64,000 bases of DNA, taken from contig NZ_JAQNDM010000002.1 in NCBI RefSeq assembly GCF_028368975.1, positions 1,922,001 to 1,986,000 of the forward strand, read 5' to 3'. The DNA is from Stigmatella ashevillena (GTDB lineage: Bacteria; Myxococcota; Myxococcia; Myxococcales; Myxococcaceae). The translations under genes were made by a program, and so were the position numbers. Below are positions 1,516-59,449 of this stretch, one piece after another; within the stretch, counting starts at the first letter, position 1; each line of letters starts with the position of its first letter. The notes under the pieces were generated by a model. It worked only from the letters and a program-made list of their open reading frames with translations, ran no database searches and was not told where the DNA came from.

Positions 1516-1569
1516 GGTGCCGCTCCCAGAAGGCGTGCGGCACCCTCATATCTGACGTGATCTGCGTCA
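1516..1569 (+). promoter_or_regulatory. Hairpin and TGACG/CGTCA palindrome before the repeat-protein gene
   Basis: Two symmetric elements lie just upstream of the gene at 1596. The first is a perfect 8-bp stem, GGTGCCGC (1516-1523) with GCGGCACC (1537-1544) and a 13-nt loop. The second is an inverted repeat, TGACG (1553-1557) and CGTCA (1565-1569), separated by 7 nt. They could be a 5'-leader hairpin and an operator. The symmetry is directly visible, but the function is a guess. The rest of 1319-1595 shows no gene. Confidence 0.3.
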
Positions 1570-1595
1570 CCCTTCGCGGGGCGGAGGACATCAAC

Positions 1596-1886: not shown

Positions 1887-1949
1887 CGGCCCCCCCGTTC
1901 CCAACAGGGAGGGCGACCACATCGCGCGCCATCGTGGTACAGCAGTGCC

Positions 1950-4685: not shown

Positions 4686-4757
4686 GGCGAATTGAATAAG
4701 CTGCGTCCCCTCGCGTCCTGACCTTTACCCCTTTGCCCTGCGAATGGAGGCACTCCC

Positions 4758-5090: not shown

Positions 5091-5118
5091 CCGTCACGAG
5101 GCGGAGACGACACAGGGA

Positions 5119-7386: not shown

Positions 7387-7449
7387 GGGCCCGCTCCTTT
7401 AACAACAAGAACGGGCCAAACTCCAGCGGATGAAACGCACCGCCTCCGA

Positions 7450-41967: not shown

Positions 41968-43600
41968 CGGTGCAGGTCAGGGTTGGCGAGGTGTTGGAAC
42001 CAGAATACGCAGCCTGGAATCCGAAGGTCGTGTTGCTCCCTGGCTGAATGACACCGTTATAGCCCACGTTCCGCGCCGTCACGCTCGCGCCGGATTGGGT
42101 CGGTGTGGCGCTCCACATGTTGGTGATCTGCTGGTTGCCACCGAAGGTCCAGCTGACCGTCCAGCCCTGGGTCACAGTGGTCCCGGTGTTCGTCACCGTC
42201 ACGGTGGCGCCAAAGCCGGTGCCCCACTCGCTCGCGACCTGATAGGTCGCCGTGCAGCCACCGGTTTCCCCTCCGGAGGACTGGGTCGTCGCGGAAACAG
42301 TGTTGGACACCTCGCTCACGTTCCCAGCGGCATCACGTGCATACACCGTGTATTTGTAGGTCGTGTTCGCCGACAGCCCTGTGTCCTTGTACGACAGCAT
42401 GCTGCTGGGCAGCGTCGCCACTCGCAAAGCCCCGCGGTAGACATCGTAACCGGTCACCGCGACGTTGTCGGTCGAGGCACTCCACGCGAGCGACACGCTG
42501 CTCAACGTTGTACCTGTCGCCCCCAGGTTGCCGGGCGCGGTCGGGCGCTGCGTGTCGCCCACCCCTCCCCCAAAAACCGAGGCCTCGACGGAGGTGGCCT
42601 CAAGACCATTGGCACTCGTGATGAGCCAAGTGCCCCAGTCCGTGCGACTGGCCGAGTTGAAGTTGTTGACCATGTCGAGGTATTCGACACCTCCTCCATT
42701 GCCGCTCCACGACCAGCCGATGTAGCCGAGCCCCAGTGATGTGGTGTGCTCCGTGACTGTCAACTCATCCGGATCACCGTCGGAGTGGTACCACCCGAAC
42801 TCGCCAACGAGGATGGGCAGGCCACGGCTGGTAAACGAGTCGAGGTAGGCCTTGACCTTCGATGGGGTGTTGTAGACGCCGTACATGTGGACGCTGAAGA
42901 TGGAGTTGCGCAGCGCATCGGCCTCCCAGATCGTCTGGGCGTTGTCCCGCATGGTGTTGGACCAGTCCTGCCCCCAGTTCGGCGCGTCAATCATCAAGGT
43001 GTGCGTCAGCCCGGCGCTCCGCAGGCGCCGGATGGCATCCAGGGTCGCCGCGACCCACTCCGTGGGATTGGTATTGCCATACGGCTCATTGCCGATGTTG
43101 ATGATGATGTAGGCCTCCTGGCCAACGAGCGCACTGCGGATGCTCAGCCAGTAGTCGACGGCCTGAGAGAGGCTGTAGGCGCCACTCGCCTCCCCGTAAC
43201 CCGTCGTGTCGTGGTTCTCGAGCACGCAGATGAGCCGGTTCTGCTTGCAGAGCGAGATGACGTTTGCCACGTCGCTGGCCGTGCTGACCGGCCACCGGCC
43301 ACCGCTCAGCACGACACGGACGCTGTTGGCTCCTACCACCTTGATGTCAGCGAACGATTGGGTCCTCTGCGAGTACCACGCGTGCGGGTGGCTGATGCCG
43401 CGGATGATGAAGTCGTTGCCGTTCGCGTCGAAGAGCCGACCGTTGACGATGTGGAAGCCGCCGTCAGCAGCATGGGCGGCACGGAGGGGCGCGAGGACGG
43501 AGAGCGCAGCAATCAGCACCGCAGCTGTCGTGGTGGTGAAGAGCCTTCGCCACCCAAACAATTCACTGCGAGTATCAGCGTGGTGACTCTGTCGGGACAT
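41960..43600 (-). CDS. Secreted GH5 beta-mannanase-like enzyme with FN3 and CBM2 modules
   Basis: 546 residues from ATG 43600, which follows GGAG at 7 nt; the frame upstream to 43771 is not coding-like. A long signal peptide (TTTTAAVLIAALSVLAPLRAAHA) precedes a GH5 catalytic domain (about 50-340) opening FHIVNGRLFDANGNDFIIRG, as in subfamily-8 mannan endo-mannosidases. Acid/base E172 (NIGNEPYG) and nucleophile E267 (LVGEFGWYHSDGD) are in place. An FN3 domain (about 350-435) and a C-terminal CBM2 (about 440-546, CTATYQVASEWGTGF, WTVSWTF) follow. Likely secreted mannan or glucomannan degradation. It shares a promoter region with the divergent GH10 xylanase gene. Its last 8 bp overlap the end of the PKS gene. 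Confidence 0.9.
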   Translation of the reverse strand: MSRQSHHADTRSELFGWRRLFTTTTAAVLIAALSVLAPLRAAHAADGGFHIVNGRLFDANGNDFIIRGISHPHAWYSQRTQSFADIKVVGANSVRVVLSGGRWPVSTASDVANVISLCKQNRLICVLENHDTTGYGEASGAYSLSQAVDYWLSIRSALVGQEAYIIINIGNEPYGNTNPTEWVAATLDAIRRLRSAGLTHTLMIDAPNWGQDWSNTMRDNAQTIWEADALRNSIFSVHMYGVYNTPSKVKAYLDSFTSRGLPILVGEFGWYHSDGDPDELTVTEHTTSLGLGYIGWSWSGNGGGVEYLDMVNNFNSASRTDWGTWLITSANGLEATSVEASVFGGGVGDTQRPTAPGNLGATGTTLSSVSLAWSASTDNVAVTGYDVYRGALRVATLPSSMLSYKDTGLSANTTYKYTVYARDAAGNVSEVSNTVSATTQSSGGETGGCTATYQVASEWGTGFGATVTVTNTGTTVTQGWTVSWTFGGNQQITNMWSATPTQSGASVTARNVGYNGVIQPGSNTTFGFQAAYSGSNTSPTLTCTVN

Positions 43601-44248
43601 CAGGTGTCTCCAGAAGTGAGTGTTCGAGGCGTGATCCACAACTTCGGCCGATGAAACTCGACGGCCCAGCACAGGGGCACGGTCCAATCCCTTGCACGAC
43701 GGCAATGTCTGACTCAGTCCTTGGCCGTGACAAAACAAGACAACTCCCAGTGGCGGGCTTGGCCCCGCCATGGGTCTGCAATTACGGCCCGCTCGACGAC
43801 TCCTGCGCGGACGCGGACAGGAGCGGGAGAACGAATCGTAACGTTGTCATTTTAGGATAAAAGAAAATTCCGTTCCTACAGCAACAAGACACATCCTCTC
43901 AGTGGTTCCAGGGAGTTGGGGGCGCGACCGCTGAGTCCCCTCAACATGCAAAACGCCAATGACAGTAACTGTACCCAGACTGTGGAGGAATTCAAGCGAA
44001 ACCGTCTCTTCCGGAGAATAGCGAGTACAGGACAGTTCTTTGGGGGAAGGAGAGCGATTCAGATTCATATGTAATGAGGGAGCGGTGCGTCAAAACCTCC
44101 CGTCCCTGAAAACAATTGAAACCATTTGACGGGCAGTGAAGTCGAGAATTATTATTCTGTCTCGAATTGACGCGAATGGATGATGACGCTTGGCCATTGC
44201 GGCCGAGGACCGTTTCGTCCCGCGCATGTTCAATCACAAGAAAGGGAT
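43601..44248. promoter_or_regulatory. Divergent intergenic region between mannanase and xylanase genes
   Basis: 648 bp without a convincing gene, becoming AT-rich between about 43850 and 44180. An inverted repeat TCGAGA (44142-44147) / TCTCGA (44160-44165) with an AT-rich centre lies about 84 bp before the xylanase start and is a candidate operator. The long spacer between two plant-polysaccharide hydrolase genes suggests joint control, but I cannot name a regulator. Confidence 0.4.
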
Positions 44249-46564
44249 ATGAAACCCATGAAGAACAAGCCTGTCCTGAAAGTGCTTCAGGGCCTCCTGG
44301 TATCGTCCTTGGCTCTGCTGCTCTTCTCGCCGCCCCCCGCGCATGCTCAAAACACCCTGCTCCTCCAAACCCATTTCGAGGATGGAACGACGCAGGGCTG
44401 GACCGGACGCGGCGGTGTGGAAACGTTGGCGGCCGCATCGGAGGCGGCCCGCAGCGGCTCGTACGGATTGAGGGTGGGCAATTTCAAGCAGTCCTGGCAC
44501 GGGCCGACGCTGGATGTCACGGCATACCTGGAGCCGGGCCAGACCTACGTGTTCTCGGGGTGGATCAAGCTGCCACCCGGAGTCTCGAACACGACCGTCT
44601 ACATGACGATGCAGCGCAAGGTGCCGAGCACCACCTACTACGAGAGGCTGTATTTCGATACGGCCACGTCCAGCAACTGGGTGAATTTCAAGGCCCAGTA
44701 CAAGCTGCTCGAGGCGGCGGACAATCTATCCGTCTACTTCGAGGCATCGAACAACGCCACGCTGGTGCTGCATCTCGACGACTTCCGCCTGGAGAAGCTG
44801 CCGGACCTCGGGCCCATCGTCATCGAAGACCAGATCCCCTCGCTCAAGGACGTCTTCGCCAGCGACTTCTTGCTCGGAACCGCGTTCTCCAACGATGAGC
44901 TCATCGCGGAGGCGGACAGGAAGCTGCTCGCCAAGCATTTCAACAGCGTGACCCCGGGCAACGTCTTGAAGTGGGACAGCACGGAGCCTCAAGAGGGTGT
45001 ATTCGACTTCAGCCGCTCGGATGCAGCCGTTCAGTTCGCGATCCAGAACGGACAGCAGGTCCGGGGACACACCCTGGTCTGGCACTCGCAAACGCCGGAC
45101 TGGGTCTTCCGGGATGCGAGCGGAAATCTGGCGAGCAAGGAGCTCTTGTTCCAACGGATGAGAAAGCACATCACCGAGGTCATGGGCCGCTACCAGGGCC
45201 AGATATCCGCCTGGGACGTGGTCAACGAGGTCATCGATGCCTCGCAGCCCGACGGATTGCGCCGCAGCACGTGGTACCAGATCGCCGGGGAGGAGTTCAT
45301 CGAAAAGGCGTTCCTGTATGCCCGCGAAGCGGACCCGAGTGCCGCGTTGTTCATCAACGATTACAACACGCACGAAGCAGGCAAGAGCCAGGCCCTGTAC
45401 AACCTGATCCAGCGGTTGAAGGCCAAGGGGATTCCCGTGGATGGCGTCGGACACCAGACGCACATCAGCCTCTTCTATCCAACGATCCAGGAGATCGAGC
45501 GGTCCATCATCAAGTTCGCCGATTTGGGGGTCGAAACGCACATCACCGAGCTGGATGTGAGCGTGTACTCCCAGTCTTCGCAGAGGTACGACACGTTCCC
45601 GGAGGATTTGAAGCAGAAGCAGGCCGCGCTCTACAAGCAACTGTTCGACGTCTTCAAAATGCACAAGAACCAGGTCACCAGCGTCACGCTGTGGGGCAAG
45701 GATGATGCCAACACCTGGTTGCGGACGTTCCCGGTGGCTCGCAACGACTGGCCGCTCCTGTTCGATGAGCGTCTGCAATCCAAGCTGGCCTACTGGGCCA
45801 TCGTGAACGCGACACCGATTCCCAGTCCCCCCACCGGCCTGACCGCAACGGCAGGCAATGGAAGAGTCGGGTTGGGCTGGATCGCCTCGAGCAGTGCCAC
45901 CTCGTACAACGTCAAGCGCGCGACGGTGGCTGGGGGCCCGTACACCCCCCTGGCGACGGTCAGCAGCACGAGCTACTCCGACACGTCGGTGACGAACGGA
46001 ACGACGTACCATTATGTCGTCAGCGCCAGGAACAGCGCGGGAGAGAGCGCGAACTCGGCCCAGCTCAGCGCAACCCCGCAGGGCACGTCGACGCCACCGC
46101 CTCAGGGCACGCTCGTGGTGCAGTACCGTGCGGCGGACACCCACGCGGGCGACAACGGCATCAAGCCGCACTTCAAGATCCAGAACCATGGCAGCGACCC
46201 CGTGATGTTGAGCGAGCTGGCCATCCGCTATTGGTTCACGATCGATGGGGAAAAGCCGCTTGCCTTCGACTGCGACTATGCGCGCGTTGGCAGCTCGAAC
46301 GTCACCGGCAGGTATGTGACGCTGAGCACGGGGAAGACAGGGGCGGACCACGCTCTGGAGATCACCTTCAACTCCTCCGCGGGGAGCATTCCGGCCGGTG
46401 GCGATTCGGGGGAAATCCAGACCCGCACCCACAAGACCGATTGGTCAAACTTCAACGAGTCCGATGACTACTCCTTCGAGCTCTCCAAGACCTCCTTCTC
46501 CCATTGGGAGCGCGTGACGCTGTACCGAAACGGCCAGCTCGTCTGGGGGACAGAGCCTCCATGA
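44249..46564 (+). CDS. Secreted GH10 endo-1,4-beta-xylanase with N-terminal CBM, FN3 and CBM3
   Basis: 771 residues from ATG 44249, preceded by AAAGGG. Signal peptide LLVSSLALLLFSPPPAHA. A CBM4/9/22-type beta-sandwich (about 30-180, YVFSGWIKLPPGVSNTTVYM) comes before the GH10 barrel (about 195-530). Catalytic acid/base E327 (WDVVNEVID) and nucleophile E434 (HITELDVSVYS) are present, as are HTLVWHSQTPDWVF and VTLWGKDDANTW. An FN3 domain (about 530-615) follows, then a C-terminal CBM3 cellulose-binding module (about 625-771, VQYRAADTHAGDNGIKPHF, HKTDWSNFNESDDYSF). A complete secreted xylan-degrading enzyme that can anchor to cellulose. Confidence 0.93.
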   Translation: MKPMKNKPVLKVLQGLLVSSLALLLFSPPPAHAQNTLLLQTHFEDGTTQGWTGRGGVETLAAASEAARSGSYGLRVGNFKQSWHGPTLDVTAYLEPGQTYVFSGWIKLPPGVSNTTVYMTMQRKVPSTTYYERLYFDTATSSNWVNFKAQYKLLEAADNLSVYFEASNNATLVLHLDDFRLEKLPDLGPIVIEDQIPSLKDVFASDFLLGTAFSNDELIAEADRKLLAKHFNSVTPGNVLKWDSTEPQEGVFDFSRSDAAVQFAIQNGQQVRGHTLVWHSQTPDWVFRDASGNLASKELLFQRMRKHITEVMGRYQGQISAWDVVNEVIDASQPDGLRRSTWYQIAGEEFIEKAFLYAREADPSAALFINDYNTHEAGKSQALYNLIQRLKAKGIPVDGVGHQTHISLFYPTIQEIERSIIKFADLGVETHITELDVSVYSQSSQRYDTFPEDLKQKQAALYKQLFDVFKMHKNQVTSVTLWGKDDANTWLRTFPVARNDWPLLFDERLQSKLAYWAIVNATPIPSPPTGLTATAGNGRVGLGWIASSSATSYNVKRATVAGGPYTPLATVSSTSYSDTSVTNGTTYHYVVSARNSAGESANSAQLSATPQGTSTPPPQGTLVVQYRAADTHAGDNGIKPHFKIQNHGSDPVMLSELAIRYWFTIDGEKPLAFDCDYARVGSSNVTGRYVTLSTGKTGADHALEITFNSSAGSIPAGGDSGEIQTRTHKTDWSNFNESDDYSFELSKTSFSHWERVTLYRNGQLVWGTEPP

Positions 46565-46617
46565 GGTGCTCACCACCGCGCCCCGCTCGCGCAGCCTGAG
46601 GGCCCAGCGGATTCTGA

Positions 46618-48405
<1,788 letters not shown>

Positions 48406-48691
48406 AGCGCACCTGCTGGACCTCCATGCCCCATGGGCGCACCCTTCGGTCGCGGGTCTGGATTATCCAAGATTGAGAAACCCAGTGTCGGGAAAAACAG
48501 ACACTCCAGTTTAAAATTAAAAAGTATGAAATCCTTGATTCTGGTTTGATGGGTCCCTAAATTATGAAGACGGCCGGGCAGCCAAACACCTGTCTGTCGT
48601 CAGGCCGTGGGGCACCCGCTCGCAGCGAGGTGATGGCTCTGGACGTGTGCTTCATGACGCATCATCCACCCGATCATTCCCGGAGGTCAGA
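48406..48691 (+). promoter_or_regulatory. AT-rich leader/promoter region of the GCIS-repeat peptide locus
   Basis: 286 bp between the monooxygenase and the small peptide gene. A stem with 6-bp arms (AGTGTC 48484-48489, GACACT 48500-48505) is followed by a markedly AT-rich tract around 48509-48560 (TTTAAAATTAAAAAG), unusual for this GC-rich window and likely to hold the promoter. GGAGG lies just before the peptide start at 48692. No specific -10/-35 could be assigned. Confidence 0.45.
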
Positions 48692-48868
48692 ATGAAACAC
48701 CTGATTCGCCAGATTGCCCAAGATCGTCTCTGGAACCAGTGGGTCGAAGCCAACTCGGCTGGTGAGCCGACCCGCGATGCCGGGTGCATCTCGGGTCCCG
48801 CGAAGGCCGGATGTATCTCTGCCCCCGCGAAGGCTGGTTGTATCTCCAAGTCCGGATGCATCAGCTGA
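48692..48868 (+). CDS. Putative multi-core ribosomal peptide precursor with four GCIS repeats
   Basis: 58 residues; ATG 48692 has GGAGG at ideal spacing. Residues 1-29 form a helical, leader-like segment (HLIRQIAQDRLWNQWVEAN). Residues 30-58 are a repeat array: AGCISGPAK, AGCISAPAK, AGCISKS, GCIS-stop, period nine residues at first. The four GCIS units use different codons (Gly GGG/GGA/GGT/GGA, Cys TGC/TGT/TGT/TGC, Ser TCG/TCT/TCC/AGC), so the repeat is kept at protein level and is not a recent DNA duplication. There is no signal peptide. The layout (leader, repeated Cys/Ser core, then enzyme and exporter genes) is that of a RiPP precursor, but no known class matches. Could instead be a small metal-binding or regulatory peptide. 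Confidence 0.75.
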   Translation: MKHLIRQIAQDRLWNQWVEANSAGEPTRDAGCISGPAKAGCISAPAKAGCISKSGCIS

Positions 48869-48884
48869 TAGAGTCGTCCGGGTT

Positions 48885-48938
48885 GCGAGCGAGACAGGAA
48901 AATCATTGATCATTCCTGTGGTTTCCTGACTCGCTCGC
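48885..48938 (+). terminator. Strong stem-loop between precursor gene and enzyme operon
   Basis: Arms 48885-48901 and 48922-48938 are complementary at 16 of 17 positions, with a 20-nt loop. It starts 16 nt after the peptide stop codon. No T-run follows immediately, so it is not a textbook intrinsic terminator. It more likely acts as an attenuator or 3'-end stabiliser giving more precursor than enzyme mRNA, as is common in peptide pathways. Confidence 0.65.
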
Positions 48939-49004
48939 GCCCGCTCCGAGAGGTTGTGCAACGCTTTTTGATGATCCATTCGACCGTCCCCCACGACTCA
49001 ACCG

Positions 49005-50276
49005 ATGGACGCCCATAGACAGCCGCTTGCCGAGATGATCGACCACGTCAGGGACATCCCTCTCTATCGCCAGTCGATCGAGCAGGGTTTCTTCCCGATC
49101 CTGGAGAAGCCGGAAATCGCCAGGGGGTTCCCGGACAATTGGATGACTCCGAGGCTTGCTGAAGCGTTGAAGGTGGGTGAGGCGGAGTTCGTGCTCTCGA
49201 CCGGAACCAATCACGCGCGGATGCAGATCATCCGTCCGCCTTTTTTCCTGTTGAAGTCCTACTACCAGTTGTGGAGCGAGCATCCCGACATCGCTGTCAC
49301 CTGGCAGCAGAACTGTCAGCGTGTCTCCATCACCACGGTGCTGGCAACGGAGCATGTGGCGCGGCTCAACGCGAGGAAGCGCGGCGCCGAGGTACCGGCA
49401 CTTCCGAGTCTCGAGGAGCGTCGACTCGACTCACGCACGCTCTATCTCAACTTGCGACTCGACCCGGCGCTCTGGGATCGCGGTGATGTGGAGCGGATGC
49501 TCGATGAAATGACCGTTGTCCAGCAGGCGCATCCGCGGGGTTGGTATCACCTCGACTGCGACAGCTACCACCTCGCTCACCTGGTGCGGAAGGCCCTGGA
49601 CGGGGGCGCGTGGCAGCGCTTTCCGAAGCCGACCAGCATCATCCACGCCTACGAGTACACGCCGAAGAACGTACAACGGTTCTTGCAGCAGCACTTCGAG
49701 TGCCCGATCATCGACCTGTTTGGCAGCACCGAACTGGGGTACCTGTATTACAGTGATCGCCACGGACAATACTGGCCCTATCTCGACAAGATGCACCTGG
49801 AGCTCATCCCAGTCGAAAAGGGCAGCACGATCTACAGCATTATTGTCTCGAGCTTGCGTAACCCACACATGCCGCTGATTCGCTATCGCTCCGGTGATTG
49901 CGCCGAAACGATCGATGGCTCCCCCGATCCGCTTCGGATTCGCCGGTTCTGCGGCCGGGAGAGAGAGTTGCTGCGGCTCGAGCGCGGAGGAGTGATCTCC
50001 CAGGCCGATCTCGACGACTGGGTCGCTGAAGCCACGCCGTCCATTTTTCTCTATCAGCTTCACCTGAAGGCGCCGCAGCAGGCGCGATTACTGTACACGA
50101 CCTTCGACAACAGGCCCGTCGATCCGGCAGCGGCGCGCGAGCTGCAACAAAGGATCCTGGAGGGCACCGGGCTCGACTGCGTCCTCGACCCTCGTGAGCA
50201 CATCGCGATCGGCAAGTCCGGGAAGTACGCCTGGCTGGTACAAGATCACGAGATGACTGGACAAGGTGGGTTGTGA
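49005..50276 (+). CDS. PaaK/coenzyme-F390-synthetase-like adenylate-forming enzyme
   Basis: 423 residues. The nucleotide loop is LSTGTNHARMQI, equivalent to the Ser/Thr/Gly-rich loop of phenylacetate-CoA ligases. IIDLFGSTELGYLYYS corresponds to the A5 motif, and MPLIRYRSGDCAE to the A7 motif with the ribose-binding Asp. KSGKYAWLVQ near the end may carry the C-terminal-domain Lys. The family activates carboxylates as AMP esters for transfer to CoA, amines or thiols. ATG 49005 has no clear ribosome binding site; an in-frame stop lies shortly upstream. Next to the GCIS-repeat peptide it could activate the peptide C-terminus, or a small acid for attachment to Lys, Cys or Ser. The following gene overlaps by one base (TGATG). 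Confidence 0.78.
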   Translation: MDAHRQPLAEMIDHVRDIPLYRQSIEQGFFPILEKPEIARGFPDNWMTPRLAEALKVGEAEFVLSTGTNHARMQIIRPPFFLLKSYYQLWSEHPDIAVTWQQNCQRVSITTVLATEHVARLNARKRGAEVPALPSLEERRLDSRTLYLNLRLDPALWDRGDVERMLDEMTVVQQAHPRGWYHLDCDSYHLAHLVRKALDGGAWQRFPKPTSIIHAYEYTPKNVQRFLQQHFECPIIDLFGSTELGYLYYSDRHGQYWPYLDKMHLELIPVEKGSTIYSIIVSSLRNPHMPLIRYRSGDCAETIDGSPDPLRIRRFCGRERELLRLERGGVISQADLDDWVAEATPSIFLYQLHLKAPQQARLLYTTFDNRPVDPAAARELQQRILEGTGLDCVLDPREHIAIGKSGKYAWLVQDHEMTGQGGL

Positions 50277-50818
50277 TGTTCAATCCCTTGAAGGTGACGA
50301 CCCCCTCGCTGAAGGCCTTGCTCGATGACGCGCTCTTCACCGGCGTGGTGCGACACTTCGCGCGGACCACCGGCAAGGAGCCTGCGTACGTCGAGCGTCA
50401 AGTCATTGAATGCCTGAAGTACCTGTACCTGATCTCCTGCTACCCAAAGCAATTGGCCGGGCTGTTCTTGCCCGTAGAGCAGGCGATTGACGAGGTCTGG
50501 CACTATCTCATCTTGCAGACCCGAGAGTACCGGGAGCTGTGCGAGGAGCGTCTGCCGGGACGCTTCTTCATCCATCACCGCAGCCTGCCGTACGAGGATT
50601 ACCAGCAGCGCCAGCCCAGCCGGGAGCAGATGCTCGAGGAGGCATTGCGCTGGCTGCCGCTGTATCGCAAGGAGTTCGGCCCCTTCGACGAGGGCGCACT
50701 GCCCCACTGGACCATGGTGCGCTTCCTCCACCAGCGCCTGGGCCTTTCCCTGGACGACATCGCGGCGCTCGAAGCAGAGGCCCCCTCCGCACAACCCGAT
50801 GCGGAGCACGTTCGTTGA
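50276..50818 (+). CDS. GRDP-like protein (short glycine-rich-domain-protein-like family)
   Basis: 180 residues. ATG 50276 shares a base with the preceding stop (TGATG); a GTG at 50273 is the only longer start. The core fits the N-terminal domain of the plant/bacterial GRDP-like family: DEVWH (72-76), TREYRELC (82-89) and FFIHH (97-101), a set of conserved Trp, His, Cys and His-His residues that could bind a metal. It is helical throughout and soluble. No biochemical function is known to me. The overlap with the adenylating-enzyme gene and the 4-bp overlap with the MFS gene show that the three are made together, so it is probably a modification enzyme or its helper in the GCIS-peptide pathway. 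Confidence 0.65.
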   Translation: MFNPLKVTTPSLKALLDDALFTGVVRHFARTTGKEPAYVERQVIECLKYLYLISCYPKQLAGLFLPVEQAIDEVWHYLILQTREYRELCEERLPGRFFIHHRSLPYEDYQQRQPSREQMLEEALRWLPLYRKEFGPFDEGALPHWTMVRFLHQRLGLSLDDIAALEAEAPSAQPDAEHVR

Positions 50819-52020
50819 CTTTTCGCGCTCGGCAGGCCGCGCCCGTGACGACGATCAACACGCGGGTCCTTCTGCTGTGTCAGGTGGTGGGGATCGCCAG
50901 CGTGGTCTCGATCCAGTTCGTCGGCAGCCTGGTGGGCAAGTGGCTCGCGGTGGATATGCGGCTCGCGACGCTCCCGGTGGCCGTGCTGGTACTGTCCTCC
51001 GCCCTGGGCACCTGGCCTGCCAGCCAATTGATGCGCCACTTTGGGCGCAAACCCTGCTTCATCGCCGCGGCGCTGCTGTCCGCCGGCTGCATGGTGCTCG
51101 CGGCACAAGCGGTGCACCGATTCGACTTCTGGCTGTTTTGCGCAGCCGTTATCGGCGTCGGTCTACAAGGTGCCTTCGTGCAGCAGTATCGTTTTGCAAT
51201 CCTCGAAGGACAGCAAGGCAGCAAGGCGCCGCGCTTGCTGACCCTGATCCTGCTCGCCAGCGCCGCAGGCATCGTTCCCGGCGTCTCGCTCTTCGGCCTG
51301 CTGGAGGCGAGGACGTCAGACTATGTGCCTTGGGCCCTGCTGATCCTGGCGATGCTCCAAGTGCTGGCCGCGCTCTCGTTGGTGCTGTACCGGCAGCAAG
51401 GCGAGGTCGTCGCTGAGGTTTCCGCCCCCCCCGACGCACGTGCTCGCGCGTTGTATTGGCCGATGGTGGCCCTGGGCGCGGGTGCATTCCTGGTGATGAG
51501 CCTGCTCATGGTGCCAACGCCCTTGCAGATGTGCGGCATCGAGCAATACATGATTCATCAGGCGAGCTGGGTCATCCAAGCGCACCTGCTGAGCATGTAC
51601 CTGCCTTCGCTGTCCATCGGCGCCCTGTTGAAAAGAATGTCGATCGCGCAGGTGCAGGGGTTGGGGCTGCTGTTCCTGCTCGTGGGGTTCCTGGTCAGTT
51701 GGGTTCAGGGCTTTGGAGGTCACCTGGTGGGGCTGGTGCTGGTGGGGGTTGGATGGTGTTTCGTGTTCGTGACCGCGACGACCCTGGTGGCACGAAGCCG
51801 CTCGGGCTCCGAGCGTTTTCGTGCACAGGGCATCAATGACTTGTGCGTGTTTGCCGCCAGCGGCGTGGCGTCGCTGACGTCCGGGGCGCTCCTGTCGATA
51901 CTGGGATGGAGCGGTCTGGTACGCCTCGGCCTGCTGCTGGTTCTGGGGTTGATGGCATTCGCATGGTACGTCCACCTCCTTCGCGTCCCACGCGAGGCCG
52001 ACCCCTGTGCGAGCCCTTGA
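50815..52020 (+). CDS. MFS family exporter of the GCIS-peptide locus
   Basis: 401 residues from TTG 50815, which overlaps the preceding stop (TTGA) and has GGAG 9 nt upstream; GTG 50845 is the alternative. About twelve transmembrane helices; the helix 2-3 loop reads LMRHFGRKPCF, an MFS motif A-like stretch, and helix 1 is LLLCQVVGIASVVSIQFVG. The central loop (about 190-215) is charged and short. Drug:H+ antiporter-like export of the matured product is the natural inference. It converges with the kinase gene, 31 bp from its stop. Confidence 0.8.
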   Translation: MTFRARQAAPVTTINTRVLLLCQVVGIASVVSIQFVGSLVGKWLAVDMRLATLPVAVLVLSSALGTWPASQLMRHFGRKPCFIAAALLSAGCMVLAAQAVHRFDFWLFCAAVIGVGLQGAFVQQYRFAILEGQQGSKAPRLLTLILLASAAGIVPGVSLFGLLEARTSDYVPWALLILAMLQVLAALSLVLYRQQGEVVAEVSAPPDARARALYWPMVALGAGAFLVMSLLMVPTPLQMCGIEQYMIHQASWVIQAHLLSMYLPSLSIGALLKRMSIAQVQGLGLLFLLVGFLVSWVQGFGGHLVGLVLVGVGWCFVFVTATTLVARSRSGSERFRAQGINDLCVFAASGVASLTSGALLSILGWSGLVRLGLLLVLGLMAFAWYVHLLRVPREADPCASP

Positions 52021-52051
52021 AGGAGGGGGCTCGGCCCACTCCGGCCCCCGC

Positions 52052-55000
52052 TCAAGGCAGGGGCCCCGTGCTGCGCCGGGCCAGCCACGCCTCCAACTCG
52101 CGGCGCAAGGGCTCGGCGGCATGGCGCTCCCGGTCGAACTGCCGCTTCGCCTCACGCGCGAGCGCCAGGGCCCGCTGACGGTCTCCGCCGGACTCCCACA
52201 GGGCCCGCGCCAACGCGAACTGGGCCTTTCCCCGGTCCACCGGCGGCAGCTCCACCTTCTCCGCCAGCGCGACCGCCTCTTCCAGAGGCGCCAGCGCCAC
52301 CTTCGAGCCCTGGTACCTTCGCGTGGCCTCTCCCAACAGCGTCAGCGACACCACCACCTTGGGGTGCTCACGGCCCAGCGCCTTGCGCCGCATCTCCAAC
52401 GCCCGCTGGAAGCCCACGAGCGCCGCAGGGAGCCTGCCCTCCTCCAGGTCCACCTTCGCCAGGTTCTGCACCACCGAGGCCACCTTGGGGTGCTCGGCGC
52501 CCAGCGCCTTCTCCCACAACTCCTGGGCCACGAGCAGCAGGCGCCGCGCCTCCGCGTAGTCCTTCTCGTCCAGCTTCACCGAGCCCAGGTTGTTGTAGGT
52601 GAGCGCCAGGTCCGGGTGCTCGGGGCCGAGAAACCGCTGCTGCAACGCCAGCGCTTCCGCATAGGTCCTCCCGGCCAGCGCCAATTGGCCCAGGTCCGCG
52701 TGAGCGTTTCCCATGCTCGTCAACACCGCGGTCACCCGCGGGTGGGCATCCCCATGGATCCGCCGCAGGCCGGGCAGCACCCGCTCGTAATGCGCCAACG
52801 CCTCGTGCAGCTTGCCTTGGCGCTGCAGCGCATCCCCCAGGTTCAACCGCACCATGAGCGTCGCCGGGTGCTCGCTCCCCTGGATGCGCTCGCTCAGCGC
52901 CAGCGCTTGCGCGTACCGGGCCACCGCCTCCTCCACGCGCCCGTGTAGCCGCAGCGAGGTGGCGATGTTGTTGAGGGCGTTGACACACCGGGGGTGCTCG
53001 GCCCCGTAGGCGCGCTCCAGCACTCGCAGGGTGCGCTCGTGGTACGTGAGCGCCTCTGCGTAGCGCCCCTGGCCATTGAGCACGAGCCCCACGCTGGAGA
53101 GGGGCCCGACGAGTCGCGGGTGCTCCGCGCCAAACGCTGTCTCCCAGAGCGCCAGGGCGGCGCGGAAGTCGGCGAGGGCGGCCTCGTGCTCGCCCTTGCG
53201 GTGGCGGAGGTGCCCACGGGCCTGACGGAACTCGCCAGCGGTTCCCGGCGTCAGCGCCACATCCATCCGCTCCAGCGCCGCCTCCGCGAGCTGGGCGGCC
53301 TGTTCGGCCTCCGGGTAGCGCGCCTTGCCATGGAGTTCCGCGTTGACGAGCCCCGTCAACGCGCGCACCAACATGTCGTCATCCCGGCCCGCCAGCGCCG
53401 CGCGCTGTGACTCCCGGAAAGCCGCCTCCGAGCCGATGAAGTTTCCCTGGGCCTCCTCCACGTACCCCAGCAGCAACTGCGCGGCAGCCTCATCGGGCCG
53501 ATAACCGATCTCTCGCGCCCCCTCCAGCACGTGCCGCCCCAGGGCCAGGGCCTGCTCCTGCTGTCCCGCCTCGTGGTACGCCGTCGCCTCCGCGAGGCGG
53601 GCCTGGAGCACCTCCCGCTGCTGGCGGACCTCTGGGGACTCGGGCGGCGGCACCACGCTGGCCAGGGCCCCTCGGTCCGCGCAGGGCAGCAGGTCCGGCA
53701 AGGCGTGCGCGGACTCGGGCGCCCGCTCCAGCACGGCCGGGTCCGCGCGGAGCATGAGCTCCACCGAGGCATGGAGGGCCCCTCGCCGCCGCGTCAGGCA
53801 GGCGCTTCGCAGATCCAGCATCCGCTCGGACTGCTCGGCGCGCACATGTGTGGCCTCGCAGGAGTCGCGCTCCATCTCCACCAGCGCGGCAGCATAGGCA
53901 TCCAGCCGCCGGGAGGTGAGCCCCCAGACCTGCTCCGCCCGCGGTCCTCCCCAGGCCCGGAAGGTGGCCTCCAGCTTCGCCCTGCGGCCTTCGTCCCAGA
54001 TCCCCACCAGTCCGCGCTCAGCCCCCGTGCAGCGCGTGGTCTCCCGCAGCCAGAAACCGGACGCCACCCCCACCACCGCGGCGACACCGGCGCAGGCGCC
54101 TGCCCACCGCCAGCGCTCCCAGCGGGGCTTGTGGCTGAGGGCGGACAGCAGCGCCTCCAGGGAGGGGTGGCGCGCCTCCGGAGCGGCGGCCAGCCCCTGG
54201 AGCAAGGCCCGCCGAATCCTGGAGGGCACACGGCTGCCAACCACCGGCGCGGGAGGAGCCTCGCGAATGGCCTGGCAGAGCGCCTGCGGCGTGGCCCCCG
54301 TGAAGGGGCGCTGACCATAGAGCCCCTCGTAGAGCGCGACGCAGAAGCTGAACTGGTCGCTGCGCGCGTCCGCGGCCTTCCCCTCCAACTGCTCGGGAGA
54401 CATGTACGCCACCGTGCCCAACAAGACCCCCTGCTGGGTCACCTCGTGGGAGCGCCAGGCGGGCGCGGCCGTCTCCGAGGCCGCCTCTGCCCGCTCGGGC
54501 TCCCGGCAGATGCGGGCCAGCCCGAAGTCGGTGACGCGCACCCGGCCATCCAGGCCCACCAGGACATTGTCTGGCTTGAAGTCCCGGTGCACCAGCCCTG
54601 CCGCATGGGCGGCCGCCAACCCGCGGCCCGCCTGGAGGAAACACTCCAGCACCTCCATCCACTGCCGGGACGCCGCCCGCAGCCACCGCCGCAGGGTGGT
54701 GCCCTCCACGAAATCCATGGCGATGAAGAGGCTGTCCTCATGCACCCCCACGTCATGCACCGCGACGGCGTGGGGGTGGGACAGACGGGCCAGCGCCTGC
54801 GCCTCGCGTCCCAGCCGCGCCCGCGCCTCCGCAGCGCTGCTCCAGTCCGAGCGCAGCAGCTTGAGGGCCACCTTGCGGTCCAGCTCCGGGTCATGCGCGG
54901 CGAAGACGACCCCCATGCCCCCCAGGCCAATGTGCTCCAAAAGCACATAACGCCCCACCTTCGAGCCCCGCGTGAGCCGTGCCTCCGCGCCAGCGGCCAG

Positions 55001-55198
55001 CGCCGAGCGGCTCGCGGCGCCCTCGCCTCCCGCGAGCACCACCACCACCTGACGGCAGGTGGCGCAGCCATCCAGGTGGGCCTCCAGCGCGGCCAGCGCC
55101 TCCCCCTCCCACAGTCCTTGCACCAGGTCGGCCAGCTCGCCCTCGTCCGGGCAGCCCGTCCCCCGGAACGAATCGCGAGAATCATGAGAGCGAGTCAT
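52052..55198 (-). CDS. Ser/Thr protein kinase with N-terminal zinc-finger-like segment and C-terminal TPR array
   Basis: 1048 residues from ATG 55198. The N-terminus (CPDEGELADLVQG, AHLDGCATCRQ) resembles the His/Cys zinc finger of anti-sigma factors. Kinase domain (about 80-350): GLGGMGVVF, VALKLL, HRDFKPDNVLVG, DFGLARI and GTVAYMSPEQLEG, all catalytic residues present. One transmembrane helix (about 368-388, AGVAAVVGVASGFWL) separates it from about 640 residues outside, mostly tetratricopeptide repeats of the kinesin-light-chain type (ALxxYERVLPGLRRIHG-like, period 42). A membrane receptor kinase of typical myxobacterial design. It is divergent, with a 53-bp spacer, from the sigma-factor gene. 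Confidence 0.92.
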   Translation of the reverse strand: MTRSHDSRDSFRGTGCPDEGELADLVQGLWEGEALAALEAHLDGCATCRQVVVVLAGGEGAASRSALAAGAEARLTRGSKVGRYVLLEHIGLGGMGVVFAAHDPELDRKVALKLLRSDWSSAAEARARLGREAQALARLSHPHAVAVHDVGVHEDSLFIAMDFVEGTTLRRWLRAASRQWMEVLECFLQAGRGLAAAHAAGLVHRDFKPDNVLVGLDGRVRVTDFGLARICREPERAEAASETAAPAWRSHEVTQQGVLLGTVAYMSPEQLEGKAADARSDQFSFCVALYEGLYGQRPFTGATPQALCQAIREAPPAPVVGSRVPSRIRRALLQGLAAAPEARHPSLEALLSALSHKPRWERWRWAGACAGVAAVVGVASGFWLRETTRCTGAERGLVGIWDEGRRAKLEATFRAWGGPRAEQVWGLTSRRLDAYAAALVEMERDSCEATHVRAEQSERMLDLRSACLTRRRGALHASVELMLRADPAVLERAPESAHALPDLLPCADRGALASVVPPPESPEVRQQREVLQARLAEATAYHEAGQQEQALALGRHVLEGAREIGYRPDEAAAQLLLGYVEEAQGNFIGSEAAFRESQRAALAGRDDDMLVRALTGLVNAELHGKARYPEAEQAAQLAEAALERMDVALTPGTAGEFRQARGHLRHRKGEHEAALADFRAALALWETAFGAEHPRLVGPLSSVGLVLNGQGRYAEALTYHERTLRVLERAYGAEHPRCVNALNNIATSLRLHGRVEEAVARYAQALALSERIQGSEHPATLMVRLNLGDALQRQGKLHEALAHYERVLPGLRRIHGDAHPRVTAVLTSMGNAHADLGQLALAGRTYAEALALQQRFLGPEHPDLALTYNNLGSVKLDEKDYAEARRLLLVAQELWEKALGAEHPKVASVVQNLAKVDLEEGRLPAALVGFQRALEMRRKALGREHPKVVVSLTLLGEATRRYQGSKVALAPLEEAVALAEKVELPPVDRGKAQFALARALWESGGDRQRALALAREAKRQFDRERHAAEPLRRELEAWLARRSTGPLP

Positions 55199-55251
55199 GG
55201 CTGCCCCCGGGAGTCCAAACGGACCACGGCTTCCTGGTAGAGTTTGACCTC

Positions 55252-56139
55252 ATGACCGGTGAGCTGGCCTTGAGCGAGGCGTTTCTCTCCGCGGCTCCGT
55301 CCGGCTGCACCCCGGGTCTGCGCGCGCTGCCCGGCCTGGAAGAAACCCTGGGCGCGCTCGTCGCGCAGGCCCGGCAGGCCCACCCCACCCTCGCGTTCGA
55401 GCCCGCGGACTTCCTGCGCCACCTCGCCGCCCATCTGCCCACACGAGGGAACGTGGGCGCGGCGCTGGACTGCGTGCGTGCCGATGAGCTGCTGCTGGCC
55501 TTTGCCTGCGCCCGGAACGAGCCCCTCGCGCTCGCCCTCCTGGAGCGTCAGGTGTTCTCGCAGGTAGAGGTGTGGCTCCCCGGAGAGGACTCCGCCGTCG
55601 TCGCGGAAGTCCGCCAGCGCCTGCGCCAGCGCCTGCTGCTCGCCGGGAACAAGCGCCCCCCGAGGATTGCCACCTTCTCCGGACGCGGGACGCTGGCGCG
55701 ATGGGCACGAGCCATCGCCACCCGGCTGCTCATCGATCTCAAGCAGGAGAGCCCGGCCCATGTCTCCCTGGAGGAGGCCTCCCCGGAGGCCGAAGCCCTC
55801 ATGGGACGCGACCCGGAGCTCAGCTTCATCCGGAGCCGCTACCAGGAGGACTTCCGCCAAGCCTTCCAAGAGGCGCTGGGGACGCTCACCCCCCGCGAGC
55901 GAAGCCTGCTGCGGCTGCACCATGTGGACAACCTCTCGGTGGACTCGGTGGGCATCATGTACCAGATGTCACGCTCCACCGCCGCCCGATGGATTGTCCA
56001 GGCACGCGAGCACCTCATCGAGCGCACCCGTGAGGCGCTCGCCGCGCGGCTCAAGCTGGAGCCTCCGGAACTGGAGAGCTTGTTGGGGCTGTTGCGCAGC
56101 CACCTGGAAGTGAGCCTCCACCGGCTGCTCCAGTCCTGA
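55252..56139 (+). CDS. Sigma-70 family RNA polymerase sigma factor, Myxococcales type
   Basis: 295 residues from ATG 55252. The N-terminal 130 residues are an unusual helical domain (FEPADFLRHLAAHLP, DELLLAFACARNEPLALALLE). They are followed by region-2-like sequence (TFSGRGTLARWARAIATRLLID) and a region-4 helix-turn-helix (LTPRERSLLRLHHVDNLS, YQMSRSTAARWIVQAREHL). This matches a lineage-specific sigma group of myxobacteria often found beside kinase genes. Its divergent kinase neighbour carries an anti-sigma-like zinc finger, so direct control of one by the other is plausible. Confidence 0.85.
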   Translation: MTGELALSEAFLSAAPSGCTPGLRALPGLEETLGALVAQARQAHPTLAFEPADFLRHLAAHLPTRGNVGAALDCVRADELLLAFACARNEPLALALLERQVFSQVEVWLPGEDSAVVAEVRQRLRQRLLLAGNKRPPRIATFSGRGTLARWARAIATRLLIDLKQESPAHVSLEEASPEAEALMGRDPELSFIRSRYQEDFRQAFQEALGTLTPRERSLLRLHHVDNLSVDSVGIMYQMSRSTAARWIVQAREHLIERTREALAARLKLEPPELESLLGLLRSHLEVSLHRLLQS

Positions 56140-56154
56140 GCCGCAGCCGCGCGA

Positions 56155-57690
56155 CTAGCACTTGCTGTTGTAGCGGCGGGGCACGTAGCAGGCGGAGAAG
56201 TAGGCCCACTCGCGGTTGATGTGGACCGCGCGGTCGAAGTTGTTGGACAGCGTCGCCTCCCACATGAAGATGCCGTTGCTCGTGTAGTAGTCGAACATCA
56301 CCACGTGGGAGTCCGCGCAGTTGAGGATGTCACCCTTGGCCAGGCTGCTGCGATTGGGGAGCACCCAGGAGATGTTGGGCAGAGTGGAGGTGCCGTGCTT
56401 GCCGGGAGTGCCCCAGGCGTGGGAGACATAGCCTGAGCAGTCCACCCCCACCGAGCAGCTCTCCACGGCCGCCGTGTGGATGTCTCCCGCCGTCTTGTTC
56501 GCATACAGGGCGCTGTCGTAGGAGGCCACGGTATCGAAGCCACCCCAGTCATACGCCACGCCCCTGTAGGCGGTGTTGGCGTTGACAAGGAAGGTGGGCT
56601 TGGTGCGGCCATCGCAGGACCCGCTGATGTTGGTGGCACTGTAGCCGCGGACGAAGTCGGCGAAGTGGTTGCCAGCGAGCGCCATGTCCTCGGCGCCACG
56701 ACAGGCCAGCGGGTGGGCCTCGAGCCGCTCCGGCACGGGGCGCTCCCGGACGACGGGAAGGATAGAGGGCAGCGTCTGGCGGAAAACAAGCCGCTGGATC
56801 TCCGCGCCCTCGCGAGTGGTGTGGAGAATGAAGGCGTCCCCGTCCGGGGCCGTGGCCACATTCGCCTGCACGTAGGTGTAGCGCTCCGCGAGCGGCACGC
56901 GGGCCATGCCCAGCAAGCGGCCCTCACGATCATACCGGCGCACCGTCTGGTCCACACGGAAGTCGGAGACGAGCGCCACCTCGTCCAACTTCGCGAAGAA
57001 GCCTCCATCGCTGCCGACGCTCAGCACCCGCAGGCCCCCCAAGTCATTGGGTACGGAGACCGATACGGTGCGCCCCCCCACCGTCAGCGTCCCGGTGTGC
57101 GCCTCGTTCTGGGACAGGTCCGCGGGGCTCGCCTGATAGGAGACCCCTTCACGGCTCAGCCCCGCCACCGCCGCGCGGGCCACGCGCCCATCGCGGTCCA
57201 GCAGTTGCTCGAAGCGGGCGCCGTAGTCGCTCTCGACCAGCAGGTTGCCGCGCTCGCCGAGCGCCACGCCGGTGACACGCCTGTCCACGACATGGCGGCC
57301 GTGCTCGACGCCGCTCAGGCCCAAGTGCAGCACGGTGGGCTCGGCGGCCGACACGTCCAGGACATAGAGGCTGTCCTTGGAGACAGCCAGCGCCGTGATA
57401 CCGACCACATCCTTGGGCTCGATGACGCCGAGTTGCTGACAGTCACGGCCATAGTGGAGCAGCCTCCGGGCCGCCGTGTCCGCGATCCAGTAGGTGCCGT
57501 CCGGAGCGATGGCGAAACCGCCCGGGCCCCAGGCCATGGCCTCCCGGGTGTCCTCGTTGGCGAACGTGATGTGCGTGCCCCCCCGAGGGAGGCGGCACAC
57601 CACTTCATTGGCACTGGCCAGCGCGGAGGATCCAATCAGGCTGGCGGATGCCACCGCCGCGCACTTCAGGAAACGTCCAAACACTCTCAT
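56155..57690 (-). CDS. Secreted NlpC/P60-like protein with N-terminal beta-propeller-like region
   Basis: 511 residues from ATG 57690, which follows GAGG. Signal peptide KCAAVASASLIGSSALASA. Residues about 30-320 contain repeated beta-sheet blades (FAIAPDGTYWIADTAARRLL, GITALAVSKDSLYVLDV, GGLRVLSVGSDGGFFAKL) like NHL/SMP-30 propellers. The C-terminal about 160 residues are a papain-like amidase domain with nucleophile Cys in VDCSGYVSHAWG and the His in DSHVVMFDYY, the NlpC/P60 pattern. Possible cell-wall or amide hydrolase. Its upstream region carries the same 35-bp promoter-like element as the glycosidase-like gene. Confidence 0.8.
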   Translation of the reverse strand: MRVFGRFLKCAAVASASLIGSSALASANEVVCRLPRGGTHITFANEDTREAMAWGPGGFAIAPDGTYWIADTAARRLLHYGRDCQQLGVIEPKDVVGITALAVSKDSLYVLDVSAAEPTVLHLGLSGVEHGRHVVDRRVTGVALGERGNLLVESDYGARFEQLLDRDGRVARAAVAGLSREGVSYQASPADLSQNEAHTGTLTVGGRTVSVSVPNDLGGLRVLSVGSDGGFFAKLDEVALVSDFRVDQTVRRYDREGRLLGMARVPLAERYTYVQANVATAPDGDAFILHTTREGAEIQRLVFRQTLPSILPVVRERPVPERLEAHPLACRGAEDMALAGNHFADFVRGYSATNISGSCDGRTKPTFLVNANTAYRGVAYDWGGFDTVASYDSALYANKTAGDIHTAAVESCSVGVDCSGYVSHAWGTPGKHGTSTLPNISWVLPNRSSLAKGDILNCADSHVVMFDYYTSNGIFMWEATLSNNFDRAVHINREWAYFSACYVPRRYNSKC

Positions 57691-57761
57691 GGCGAACCTC
57701 GGCGAAGCCCACCGATGGAACATCGGTGGGTTGGAGCAAGCCCTCGATGGGCTGCCATTTG

Positions 57762-57795
57762 AGAGACAGCGGGAGACGTTTTTCGTCCCATTTCC
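57762..57795 (-). promoter_or_regulatory. ECF-type promoter candidate upstream of NlpC/P60-like gene
   Basis: Minus strand: GGGACG (57784-57789), 16-bp spacer, GTCTCT (57762-57767), ending 71 bp before the start codon. Block GGAAATGGGACGAAAA is identical to the one upstream of the gene starting at 59345. The spacing and GGGAC/GTC cores fit an extracytoplasmic-function sigma promoter. Confidence 0.6.
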
Positions 57796-59345: not shown

Positions 59346-59407
59346 GTAAGGCCTCCCCGAGGCTGTCAACGGCGCCCTGGTTTGCAAGGTCGCCAAGGAC
59401 CGTTCCT

Positions 59408-59442
59408 CAGAGACAGGAGCGGGCGATTTTCGTCCCATTTCC
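59408..59442 (-). promoter_or_regulatory. ECF-type promoter candidate upstream of glycosidase-like gene
   Basis: Minus strand: GGGACG (59431-59436), 16-bp spacer, GTCTCT (59409-59414), 63 bp before the start codon. Over 35 bp it matches the element at 57762-57795 at 28 positions, including 16 consecutive bases around GGGACG and 8 around the GTCTCT box. Confidence 0.6.
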
Positions 59443-59449
59443 CCACGTT

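Follow-up and report, generated by a model that had tools for sequence, protein, structure and literature searches.

Two sets of described enzymes come closest to the locus considered here. In the synthesis of nosiheptide, an aryl acid is adenylated by the ligase NosI and is thought to reach a Cys thiol of the precursor peptide NosM; in vitro, the study saw no transfer to this precursor (PMC5585349). The likeness of this NosI/NosJ/NosK system to our locus lies in the AMP ester made by a ligase, with a Cys thiol of the precursor as proposed acceptor. By contrast, the nosiheptide system has a carrier protein and a transferase of the alpha/beta-hydrolase fold, neither of which was recognised in the present cluster (PMC5585349). 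Outside peptide chemistry, excerpts of two reports have NatL2 making an ester from an acyl-AMP, being thought locked against CoA (PMC7204872), and ClxA forming amides and phenyl esters (PMC12519233). There an acyl-AMP is coupled to a hydroxyl or an amine, comparable to the acyl transfer that we propose for our ligase, but the acceptors are aryl acids or phenols and the excerpts give no peptide partner (PMC7204872, PMC12519233). What NatL2, ClxA and AjiA1 share with our ligase is the fold (Z 19.5-23), at an identity of only 14-18%. AjiA1 is presumably a benzoxazole enzyme. Thiopeptides have YcaO and dehydratase as their core enzymes; these are not among the four enzymes of our locus, nor are the class enzymes of the lanthipeptide, YcaO, radical SAM, graspetide, lasso and MNIO families.

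The window, that is, the whole stretch of 64,000 nucleotides of Stigmatella ashevillena DNA that was analysed, carries a gene set (Table 1) that suggests a family of peptides, made by the ribosome and modified by enzymes (RiPPs), which has not been described before. Two traits of such peptides were found at each of the 82 loci collected, namely a ribosomally encoded precursor, conserved in its leader and variable in its core, and a candidate modifying enzyme, the ligase, encoded alongside it. Among the matches listed in a search of the open-licence PubMed Central literature, no title or start of an abstract describes the peptide, its partners or the gene set.

The precursor and its locus

Table 1. 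Features of the GCIS-repeat locus, in window positions
Feature	Position	Strand	Remark
FMO: class B flavin monooxygenase (Baeyer-Villiger type)	46762..48405	+	Probable tailoring enzyme; outside the coordinates of the preliminary description
Precursor peptide, GCIS-repeat, 58 aa	48692..48868	+	Leader at about residues 1-29, then four units
GCIS units (four)	48782-48793, 48809-48820, 48836-48847, 48854-48865	+	At residues 31, 40, 49 and 55
Hairpin between precursor and ligase genes	48885..48938	+	Folding z-score; arms located
PaaK-like adenylate-forming ligase, 423 aa	49005..50276	+	Fold model and motifs
GRDP-like all-helical partner protein, 180 aa	50276..50818	+	Motif DEVWHYLILQT..Y...C; predicted model
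MFS transporter, 401 aa, probable exporter	50815..52020	+	MFS_1 over cut-off; probable TTG start

A preliminary description of this DNA had read a 58-residue peptide with four GCIS units, followed by ligase, GRDP-like and MFS genes in that order. Both the reading frame and the gene order stand, with a 1-bp overlap of the GRDP-like ATG at 50276 with the ligase stop and a 4-bp overlap of the GRDP-like stop with the TTG at 50815, where the MFS gene probably starts. The extent then given, 48692-52020, was too narrow: an FMO gene had been missed, which adjoins the cluster in all seven myxobacterial loci. In the window this gene starts at MSDLQ, preceded by a GGAGGTGAG site, while a Shine-Dalgarno-like GGAGG lies upstream of the precursor ATG and 136 bp separate the precursor from the ligase gene. 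The intergenic region between these two (48866-49010) folds with a z-score of -3.6, and 14 other regions in the same place range from -1.2 to -6.0, 12 of them at or below -2.3. The strong hairpin found here is probably a partial terminator that would keep the precursor transcript in excess. A consensus scan of 48350-49100 gave no T-run terminator, and as promoter-like site a single one, on the minus strand, no better than in shuffles.

Across the 82 loci the unit follows the consensus K-x-G-C-[IV]-S, repeated one to six times per peptide, with Lys at position -2 in 242 of 249 units; in the seven myxobacterial precursors the first unit either lacks this Lys (six cases, with DA or EA) or is a degenerate GGVA (one case). 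Cys is confined to the units, the exception being the second Cys of GCIC in one precursor (L073). Degenerate units (GYIS, GRAS, GGVA, GCIC) occur singly, as expected if units are modified separately. In the window the units are written GGGTGCATCTCG, GGATGTATCTCT, GGTTGTATCTCC and GGATGCATCAGC, with four distinct Ser codons. This had been taken as a sign of selection on the amino-acid repeat, an argument that keeps its force within the window, but in the family 33 of 81 multi-unit precursors contain two units identical over 12 nt.

The leader consensus is approximately MEQLIKKMAQDxVWxxWVAANSA, with M1, L4, W14, W17 and N21 invariant in an alignment of 47 of the 82 precursors, hand-picked for spread. 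It varies more at synonymous than at non-synonymous sites (pS 0.35 vs pN 0.21; of 3321 pairs, the 2884 whose pS lay between 0 and 0.6, both limits excluded, were counted). The helical leader of the preliminary description finds no support as an amphipathic helix (mean z -0.34 against shuffles; z above 1 in 6 of 82); it may still be a plain helix. Pfam/NCBIfam profiles gave weak matches to PF18566 Ldi in 32 of the 47 precursors (best E 5e-4) and to SicP in 13 (best E 0.004), both of which we take as chance.

Distribution and partner proteins

Co-occurrence strongly supports what the preliminary description had proposed, a dedicated precursor with PaaK-like and GRDP-like partners, apparently outside the familiar RiPP classes. 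A GC[IV]S precursor lies immediately 5' of the ligase gene at 82 of 82 loci, so that at none of them is the Cys-repeat reading frame missing, and the cluster spans Streptomycetaceae, Pseudonocardiaceae and relatives, and Myxococcota, with the variation in repeat number that had been looked for across genera. At least 78 of the loci came from exact matches to short peptides of the ligase, which biases the set towards close relatives. One precursor search accounted for 79 of 81 loci, the precursors of L086 and L138 coming from other searches; L138 has one unit and no GRDP-like match. In a draw of 295 Streptomyces genomes, centred on a cluster-bearing one (G059), separate searches placed the precursor in 37 genomes and the ligase in 36, each of which also has the precursor (hypergeometric p about 1.6e-45, relatedness ignored). 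Scoring took a limited number of first-pass candidates per genome, up to 23 for the precursor, up to six for the ligase, and up to 23 and 35 in two further searches, so absences are not exhaustive. At the one locus with a precursor and no ligase the DNA ends 27 bp past the precursor. Each of 13 genomes out of 13 carries a single precursor.

Ligase homologues at 27-34% identity occur in other relatives. At five such loci (L058-L062, outside the 82) GRDP-like protein, MFS and monooxygenase gave no match, and the genomes concerned yielded no strong precursor: among 59 genomes, E at or below 1e-20 was reached only in G000, G013, G033 and G034. Precursor matches at E up to 1 in 57 of these 59 we take as noise; in G032 a match at E 0.001 sits on a different contig. 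The GRDP-like profile matches two of 39 relatives, both carrying the cluster, and no plasmid gave a ligase match at E up to 1e-10. Frames with internal stops in a crude extension were left out, which kept 84 of 87 ligases, 67 of the 79 GRDP-like proteins detected, 51 of 57 MFS proteins and 13 of 14 monooxygenases; the ligase tree holds 79 of the 82.

The model of the ligase (pLDDT 88.7) has the PaaK type of fold, with 4r1l at Z 24.0 (rmsd 3.6, 355 residues aligned), PaaK1 (2y27) at Z 23.8, and PaaK, ClxA, AjiA1 and NatL2 as nearest relatives in fold. In 76 sequences aligned after a length filter, STGT (S65-T68), FGSTELGY (F239-Y246), RYRSGD (R293-D298) and a C-terminal SGK (K407) are invariant or nearly so; we take them to be the P-loop, A5, A7 and C-terminal Lys of PaaK/ANL enzymes. 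Identity to solved enzymes is 12-18% for the 15 best matches, and the substrate class is therefore not predicted. An ordinary phenylacetate-CoA ligase (TIGR02155) was rejected at 13.6 bits against a cut-off of 646.3, even though the fold remains that of PaaK. The best NCBIfam match is the DVU_1553-family AMP-dependent CoA ligase (NF045666), yet it covers the protein in part and scores 40.5 bits where the cut-off is 300.

The GRDP-like protein accompanies the ligase in 79 of 82 loci, and in two of the three loci that miss it the DNA stops 24 and 126 bp beyond the ligase gene. Its label, carried over from the preliminary description, has weak backing from profiles: the protein of the window matches no Pfam family at E up to 1, and PF07173, the GRDP-like domain of bacteria and plants, is touched by three of 57 length-filtered members, below significance (best E 0.14). 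The visible DxxWH...Y...C motif presumably resembles that domain. The predicted model (pLDDT 85.5) found no close solved fold, with no sequence match in the PDB at E up to 10, a best Foldseek E of 0.99 and a best VIA-align Z of 2.5 among 159 chains; these misses are no evidence of a fold new in nature. Possibly the protein represents a type of RiPP partner not met before.

The MFS protein of the window, scanned from 50845, passes the MFS_1 cut-off (36.9 bits against 33.4), and an MFS gene was detected in 57 of 82 loci, four of the 25 misses being loci that end within 3.3 kb of the ligase. The FMO, scanned from 46654, exceeds the Pfam Pyr_redox_3 / FMO-like cut-off; its NCBIfam match, PtlE-type, reaches 298 bits, below the cut-off of 1100. 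Either this enzyme, or a carbonic anhydrase and/or a SulP transporter, recurs at the edge of the cluster in several arrangements. The FMO does so in 14 of 82 loci, in four positions or orientations. The association with carbonic anhydrase and SulP had escaped the preliminary description. Searched with one Streptomyces query each, both are missing from 36 of the 82 loci, those with short flanks included, and a different carbonic anhydrase stands beside the cluster in one Sorangium. Carbonic anhydrase is a zinc enzyme. A tree of 40 of 185 carbonic anhydrase matches, with the So ce26 enzyme added, joins 12 cluster-adjacent Streptomyces enzymes in one 19-row group (98/98), together with seven non-adjacent ones; the So ce26 enzyme falls outside this group, in a tree with long branches and some unsure placements.

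A proposed pathway and its alternatives

That the cluster is a dedicated system for modifying a precursor seems to us highly probable. We propose that the precursor is made in excess, helped by the hairpin past its stop codon, and that its leader would be recognised by the ligase, the GRDP-like protein or both. The substrate of the ligase would be a small carboxylic acid, probably aromatic, which it would activate as an acyl-AMP and transfer to a nucleophile on each unit, in the manner of NatL2 and ClxA. This nucleophile would most likely be the Cys thiol, yielding a thioester, from which the group might be relayed to the amine of a nearby Lys or the hydroxyl of a nearby Ser. The FMO might oxidise the product afterwards in some lineages, and the MFS protein would export either the whole peptide or cleaved fragments. 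Among the routes put forward earlier, attachment of an acid to Cys, Ser or Lys, or as a thioester, is the one we favour. Acylation of precursor side chains by the ligase is in our judgement evenly poised, and Cys as the first acceptor is a tentative choice; the identity of acid, acceptor and product we infer. Taken as a whole, this reading, a RiPP-like class whose units are acylated by the ligase with a small activated acid, Cys being the likeliest site, stands at about an even chance. In the other loci, where genes were sorted by clustering only, the widely recurring ones are ligase, GRDP-like protein, MFS, monooxygenase, carbonic anhydrase and SulP. In the recurring gene families, the flanks being partly annotated, we recognised neither a protease nor a carrier protein nor an acyltransferase, and in the window cluster no gene for synthesis of the acid.

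Rather unlikely, though fitting the sequence just as well, is a role of the peptide as carrier or scaffold, the ligase loading thioesters on the Cys units, where a small molecule would be built, oxidised by the FMO and released, the peptide being recycled. The near-identical Cys sites repeat, as such a carrier would ask for, a monooxygenase does adjoin some of the loci, and CoA ligases of the PaaK fold hand their acyl group to a thiol. No enzyme for release, or other enzyme of small-molecule biosynthesis, was recognised among the recurring gene families, however incomplete their annotation. A thioester carrier is used in nosiheptide chemistry (PMC5585349).

The carboxylate at the end of the peptide offers another target, already considered in the preliminary description: the ligase would adenylate the last Ser and cap or cyclise the peptide. 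Seventy-four of the 82 precursors do end in GC[IV]S, but the other eight weaken the idea, seven of them running one to seven residues past the last unit (R in three loci, then RSQSRSS, RSQNRGS, KG and WGADG) and one ending in a degenerate GRAS. Trimming could rescue them, yet the repeats and the internal Cys residues are left unexplained, and we hold this unlikely.

Equally improbable is a peptide whose unacylated Cys residues bind zinc, copper or electrophiles, the ligase making a cap or a separate molecule and the carbonic anhydrase belonging to the same response. Nearly every unit has its Cys, and at least 24 of 36 Streptomyces genomes have a carbonic anhydrase no more than 3.8 kb from the ligase. 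The metal site would be poor, however, with one Cys per unit, several residues apart, and no second Cys or His within the unit; one precursor, from Sinosporangium, offers just one unit, and Rfam gave no match within 46000-53000 of the window. We give the same low credence to a more specific version of the preferred acylation pathway, a new RiPP class built on an ANL ligase and a helical partner with no solved relative, decorating repeated K-x-G-C-I-S by transfer of thioester or acyl groups, with a product acting on CO2/bicarbonate metabolism; were it true, the carbonic anhydrase and SulP, recruited several times in Streptomyces, and the different carbonic anhydrase of the one Sorangium would provide self-protection or accessory functions. 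A chance reading frame beside an ordinary acyl-CoA ligase is refuted: the frame is small and 28 of 200,000 shuffles of the window peptide repeat some tetrapeptide at least three times, but frame, leader and units are conserved from Actinomycetota to Myxococcota, and all 36 ligase-bearing Streptomyces genomes of the draw have the precursor. Conservation of frame and units at every one of the 82 loci is stronger evidence against chance than the shuffle test.

If the acylation pathway holds, several acyl groups could be placed on a peptide in a simple and programmable way, by pairing a six-residue acceptor repeat with an ATP-dependent ligase. The precursor occurs in about one eighth of the Streptomyces genomes drawn, and the cluster gives a direct handle for a product search in, among others, strains of S. 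griseus (locus L106), S. noursei (L080) and S. rimosus (L084).

The precursor and its partner genes

The 58-residue peptide with four GCIS units and four differing serine codons, from which a new ribosomal-peptide pathway had been proposed, is present in the window sequence as first described, as are the PaaK-like, GRDP-like and MFS genes with their 1- and 4-bp overlaps. In this 10.95 Mb genome the peptide gene is preceded by a good ribosome-binding site and separated from the ligase gene by 136 bp, within which lies a strong hairpin (17-base arms, one mismatch). Folding of this region gave z -3.6; z was -2.3 or lower in 12 of the 14 intergenic regions folded from related loci, the exceptions being L124 (-1.8) and L085 (-1.2). 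The flanking genes look unrelated to the cluster: upstream a secreted GH10 xylanase bearing CBM domains, downstream a TPR-repeat protein kinase.

Coordinates of features in the window and in other loci
Feature	Sequence	Position	Strand
GCIS-repeat precursor	window	48692-48868	+
Flavin monooxygenase	window	~46762-48405	+
GH10 xylanase, upstream flank	window	44180-46564	
TPR protein kinase, downstream flank	window	52052-55198	-
One-unit precursor, Sinosporangium	L138	just upstream of 6001	
Run with remote ligase homologue	L058 (G005:C1:660000-669500)	1477-8243	-
Beta-carbonic anhydrase, Sorangium So ce26	L063	10844-11500	
Three carbonic anhydrase copies, Streptomyces	G161:C1	910167, 1355662, 4758320	

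In a search of 59 whole genomes, that of the window among them, strong peptide matches (E 5e-36 to 2e-22) occurred only in G000, G013, G033 and G034. Those four are also the genomes with a ligase at 84% identity or above. A ligase-based scan of genome contigs gave 78 further loci, from Streptomyces (68), Sorangium (3), Amycolatopsis (2), Kutzneria, Actinokineospora, another Pseudonocardiaceae, Sinosporangium and Kitasatospora (1 each), which with those of the window, G013, G033 and G034 make 82. A GC[IV]S precursor lies directly upstream of the ligase, on the same strand, in all 82 (one locus scan gave 79/81; the precursors of L086 and L138 were found separately). Neither ligase homologues devoid of the small ORF nor a frameshifted ORF, which the preliminary description had named as telling against a pathway, were thus encountered at these loci. 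Because the contig scan had started from the ligase, 295 Streptomyces genomes, drawn around one known beforehand to be positive (G059), were searched separately with the precursor and ligase profiles. Among the candidates scored per genome, up to a fixed number, the precursor was found in 37 genomes and a ligase in 36 of these and in no others; 258 gave neither, a co-occurrence of p ~1.6e-45 when kinship of the genomes is ignored. In the sole precursor genome lacking a ligase, G152, the locus ends 27 bp past the precursor (others continue 1,500), presumably where the contig itself ends. A dedicated precursor, its unit and its partner gene are established.

The 82 loci encode 81 distinct peptides, with one (n = 1), two (9), three (61), four (8), five (2) or six (1) units. 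Lysine stands at -2 in 242 of the 249 exact GC[IV]S units, so that the unit reads K-x-G-C-[IV]-S, and cysteine is found in units alone, bar the second one of GCIC in L073. Leader positions M1, L4, W14, W17 and N21 are invariant across 47 aligned precursors. Single units have decayed while others were kept (GYIS in L090, GRAS in L112, GGVA in L064), a pattern of one-at-a-time loss that fits independent sites. Eight of the 82 precursors (L068, L101, L103, L112, L113, L128, L132, L138) terminate in something other than GC[IV]S, which argues against an obligatory role of the last serine carboxylate. L138 retains a one-unit precursor and the ligase, GRDP-like and MFS matches not being found at the locus; it may be a minimal or decaying version of the cluster. 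Weak Pfam matches to PF18566 (linalool dehydratase/isomerase) in 32 of 47 precursors, best E 5e-4, are probably due to chance.

Ligase, GRDP-like protein and a candidate mechanism

Scores of the ligase against curated families are low, and its model (pLDDT 88.7) shows a PaaK-type fold, with Z 23-24 against PaaK-type ligases, 23 against ClxA, 20.7 against AjiA1 and 19.5-20 against NatL2 entries. Adenylation motifs, including the C-terminal lysine, are conserved in the family. NatL2 converts an acyl-AMP to an ester, its closed form being thought to lock it against attack by CoA (PMC7204872), and ClxA, a known amide former, also makes phenyl benzoate esters (PMC12519233). Outside the 82-locus set, a remote ligase homologue (30-34%) lies in L058. 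Its neighbours, all on one strand, encode glutamate-cysteine ligase (GCS2), class V aminotransferase, C26 peptidase/amidotransferase, radical SAM/SPASM and RimK-like ATP-grasp proteins; the run looks like another, distinct peptide or amino-acid pathway using this kind of ligase.

The GRDP-like gene was detected in 79/82 loci. Its product is modelled as all-helical (pLDDT 85.5), with 44 invariant columns in 57 sequences, D72, E73, W75, H76, C89 and H101 among them; PF07173 scores are marginal, and no solved relative was detected by sequence or structure comparison. The GRDP-like profile matches two of 39 relatives, both carrying the cluster.

The leader would be recognised, the ligase would form an acyl-AMP, the acyl group would move to side chains of the units, cysteine first, and the product would be exported. 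As no recurring carrier protein was recognised in the cluster loci, transfer would fall to the ligase itself or to the GRDP-like protein. Nosiheptide offers a precedent in which an aryl acid is activated and finally attached to a cysteine of the precursor: NosI forms the AMP ester, NosJ serves as carrier and NosK is the presumed transferase to the Cys8 thiol, transfer to the precursor not having been observed in vitro (PMC5585349).

The cluster is a real, conserved RiPP-like system, a RiPP by its layout, and its enzyme set, as judged by the four enzymes in the window, is unlike the RiPP classes known to us. Among the listed titles and abstract openings of open-licence full-text literature, none described the peptide or gene set; the supplement of the decRiPPter study (PMC7794033) may include this family.

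Distribution and neighbouring genes

The cluster has apparently spread horizontally. In a draw of 296 genomes from the class, centred on an Amycolatopsis genome, five carried it, two of which were known beforehand. A draw of 195 genomes from the phylum of the window gave seven, counting that of the window itself; the six same-genus genomes of that draw (G001-G006) showed none among the candidates scored. In the ligase tree seven myxobacterial rows form one group (support 100/99), nested with five Pseudonocardiaceae rows in a supported group (100/99). This nesting, together with the patchy distribution, suggests horizontal transfer between phyla, its direction hanging on a midpoint root.

The MFS gene was detected in 57/82 loci and the flavin monooxygenase in 14/82, up- or downstream of the cluster and on either strand. 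A carbonic anhydrase and/or a SulP transporter accompanies 46/82 loci (both in 34), representatives scoring well over the Pfam cut-offs for Pro_CA and Sulfate_transp; with neither in the other 36, the association is not general, and one Streptomyces query each matched nothing around the window cluster (40001-60000). In at least 24 of the 36 ligase-bearing Streptomyces genomes of the draw, the ligase has a beta-carbonic anhydrase gene no more than 3.8 kb away (same strand: 13 downstream, 5 upstream; inverted: 6, all upstream), where chance would place one in ~0.7% per genome, although related genomes have synteny in common. On the ligase tree, 15 changes of the arrangement label are required. 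Cluster-side carbonic anhydrases of Streptomyces fall into several lineages within one subfamily, and that of Sorangium So ce26 differs from them in type. From these multiple arrangements, lineages and types, we read carbonic anhydrase and SulP as recruited repeatedly and hence functionally linked to the cluster. The So ce26 gene lies directly 3' of the cluster monooxygenase (Pro_CA 125.8 bits). The cluster-bearing Streptomyces G161 has, among the matches listed, three equal-scoring carbonic anhydrase copies, which suggests recent duplication.
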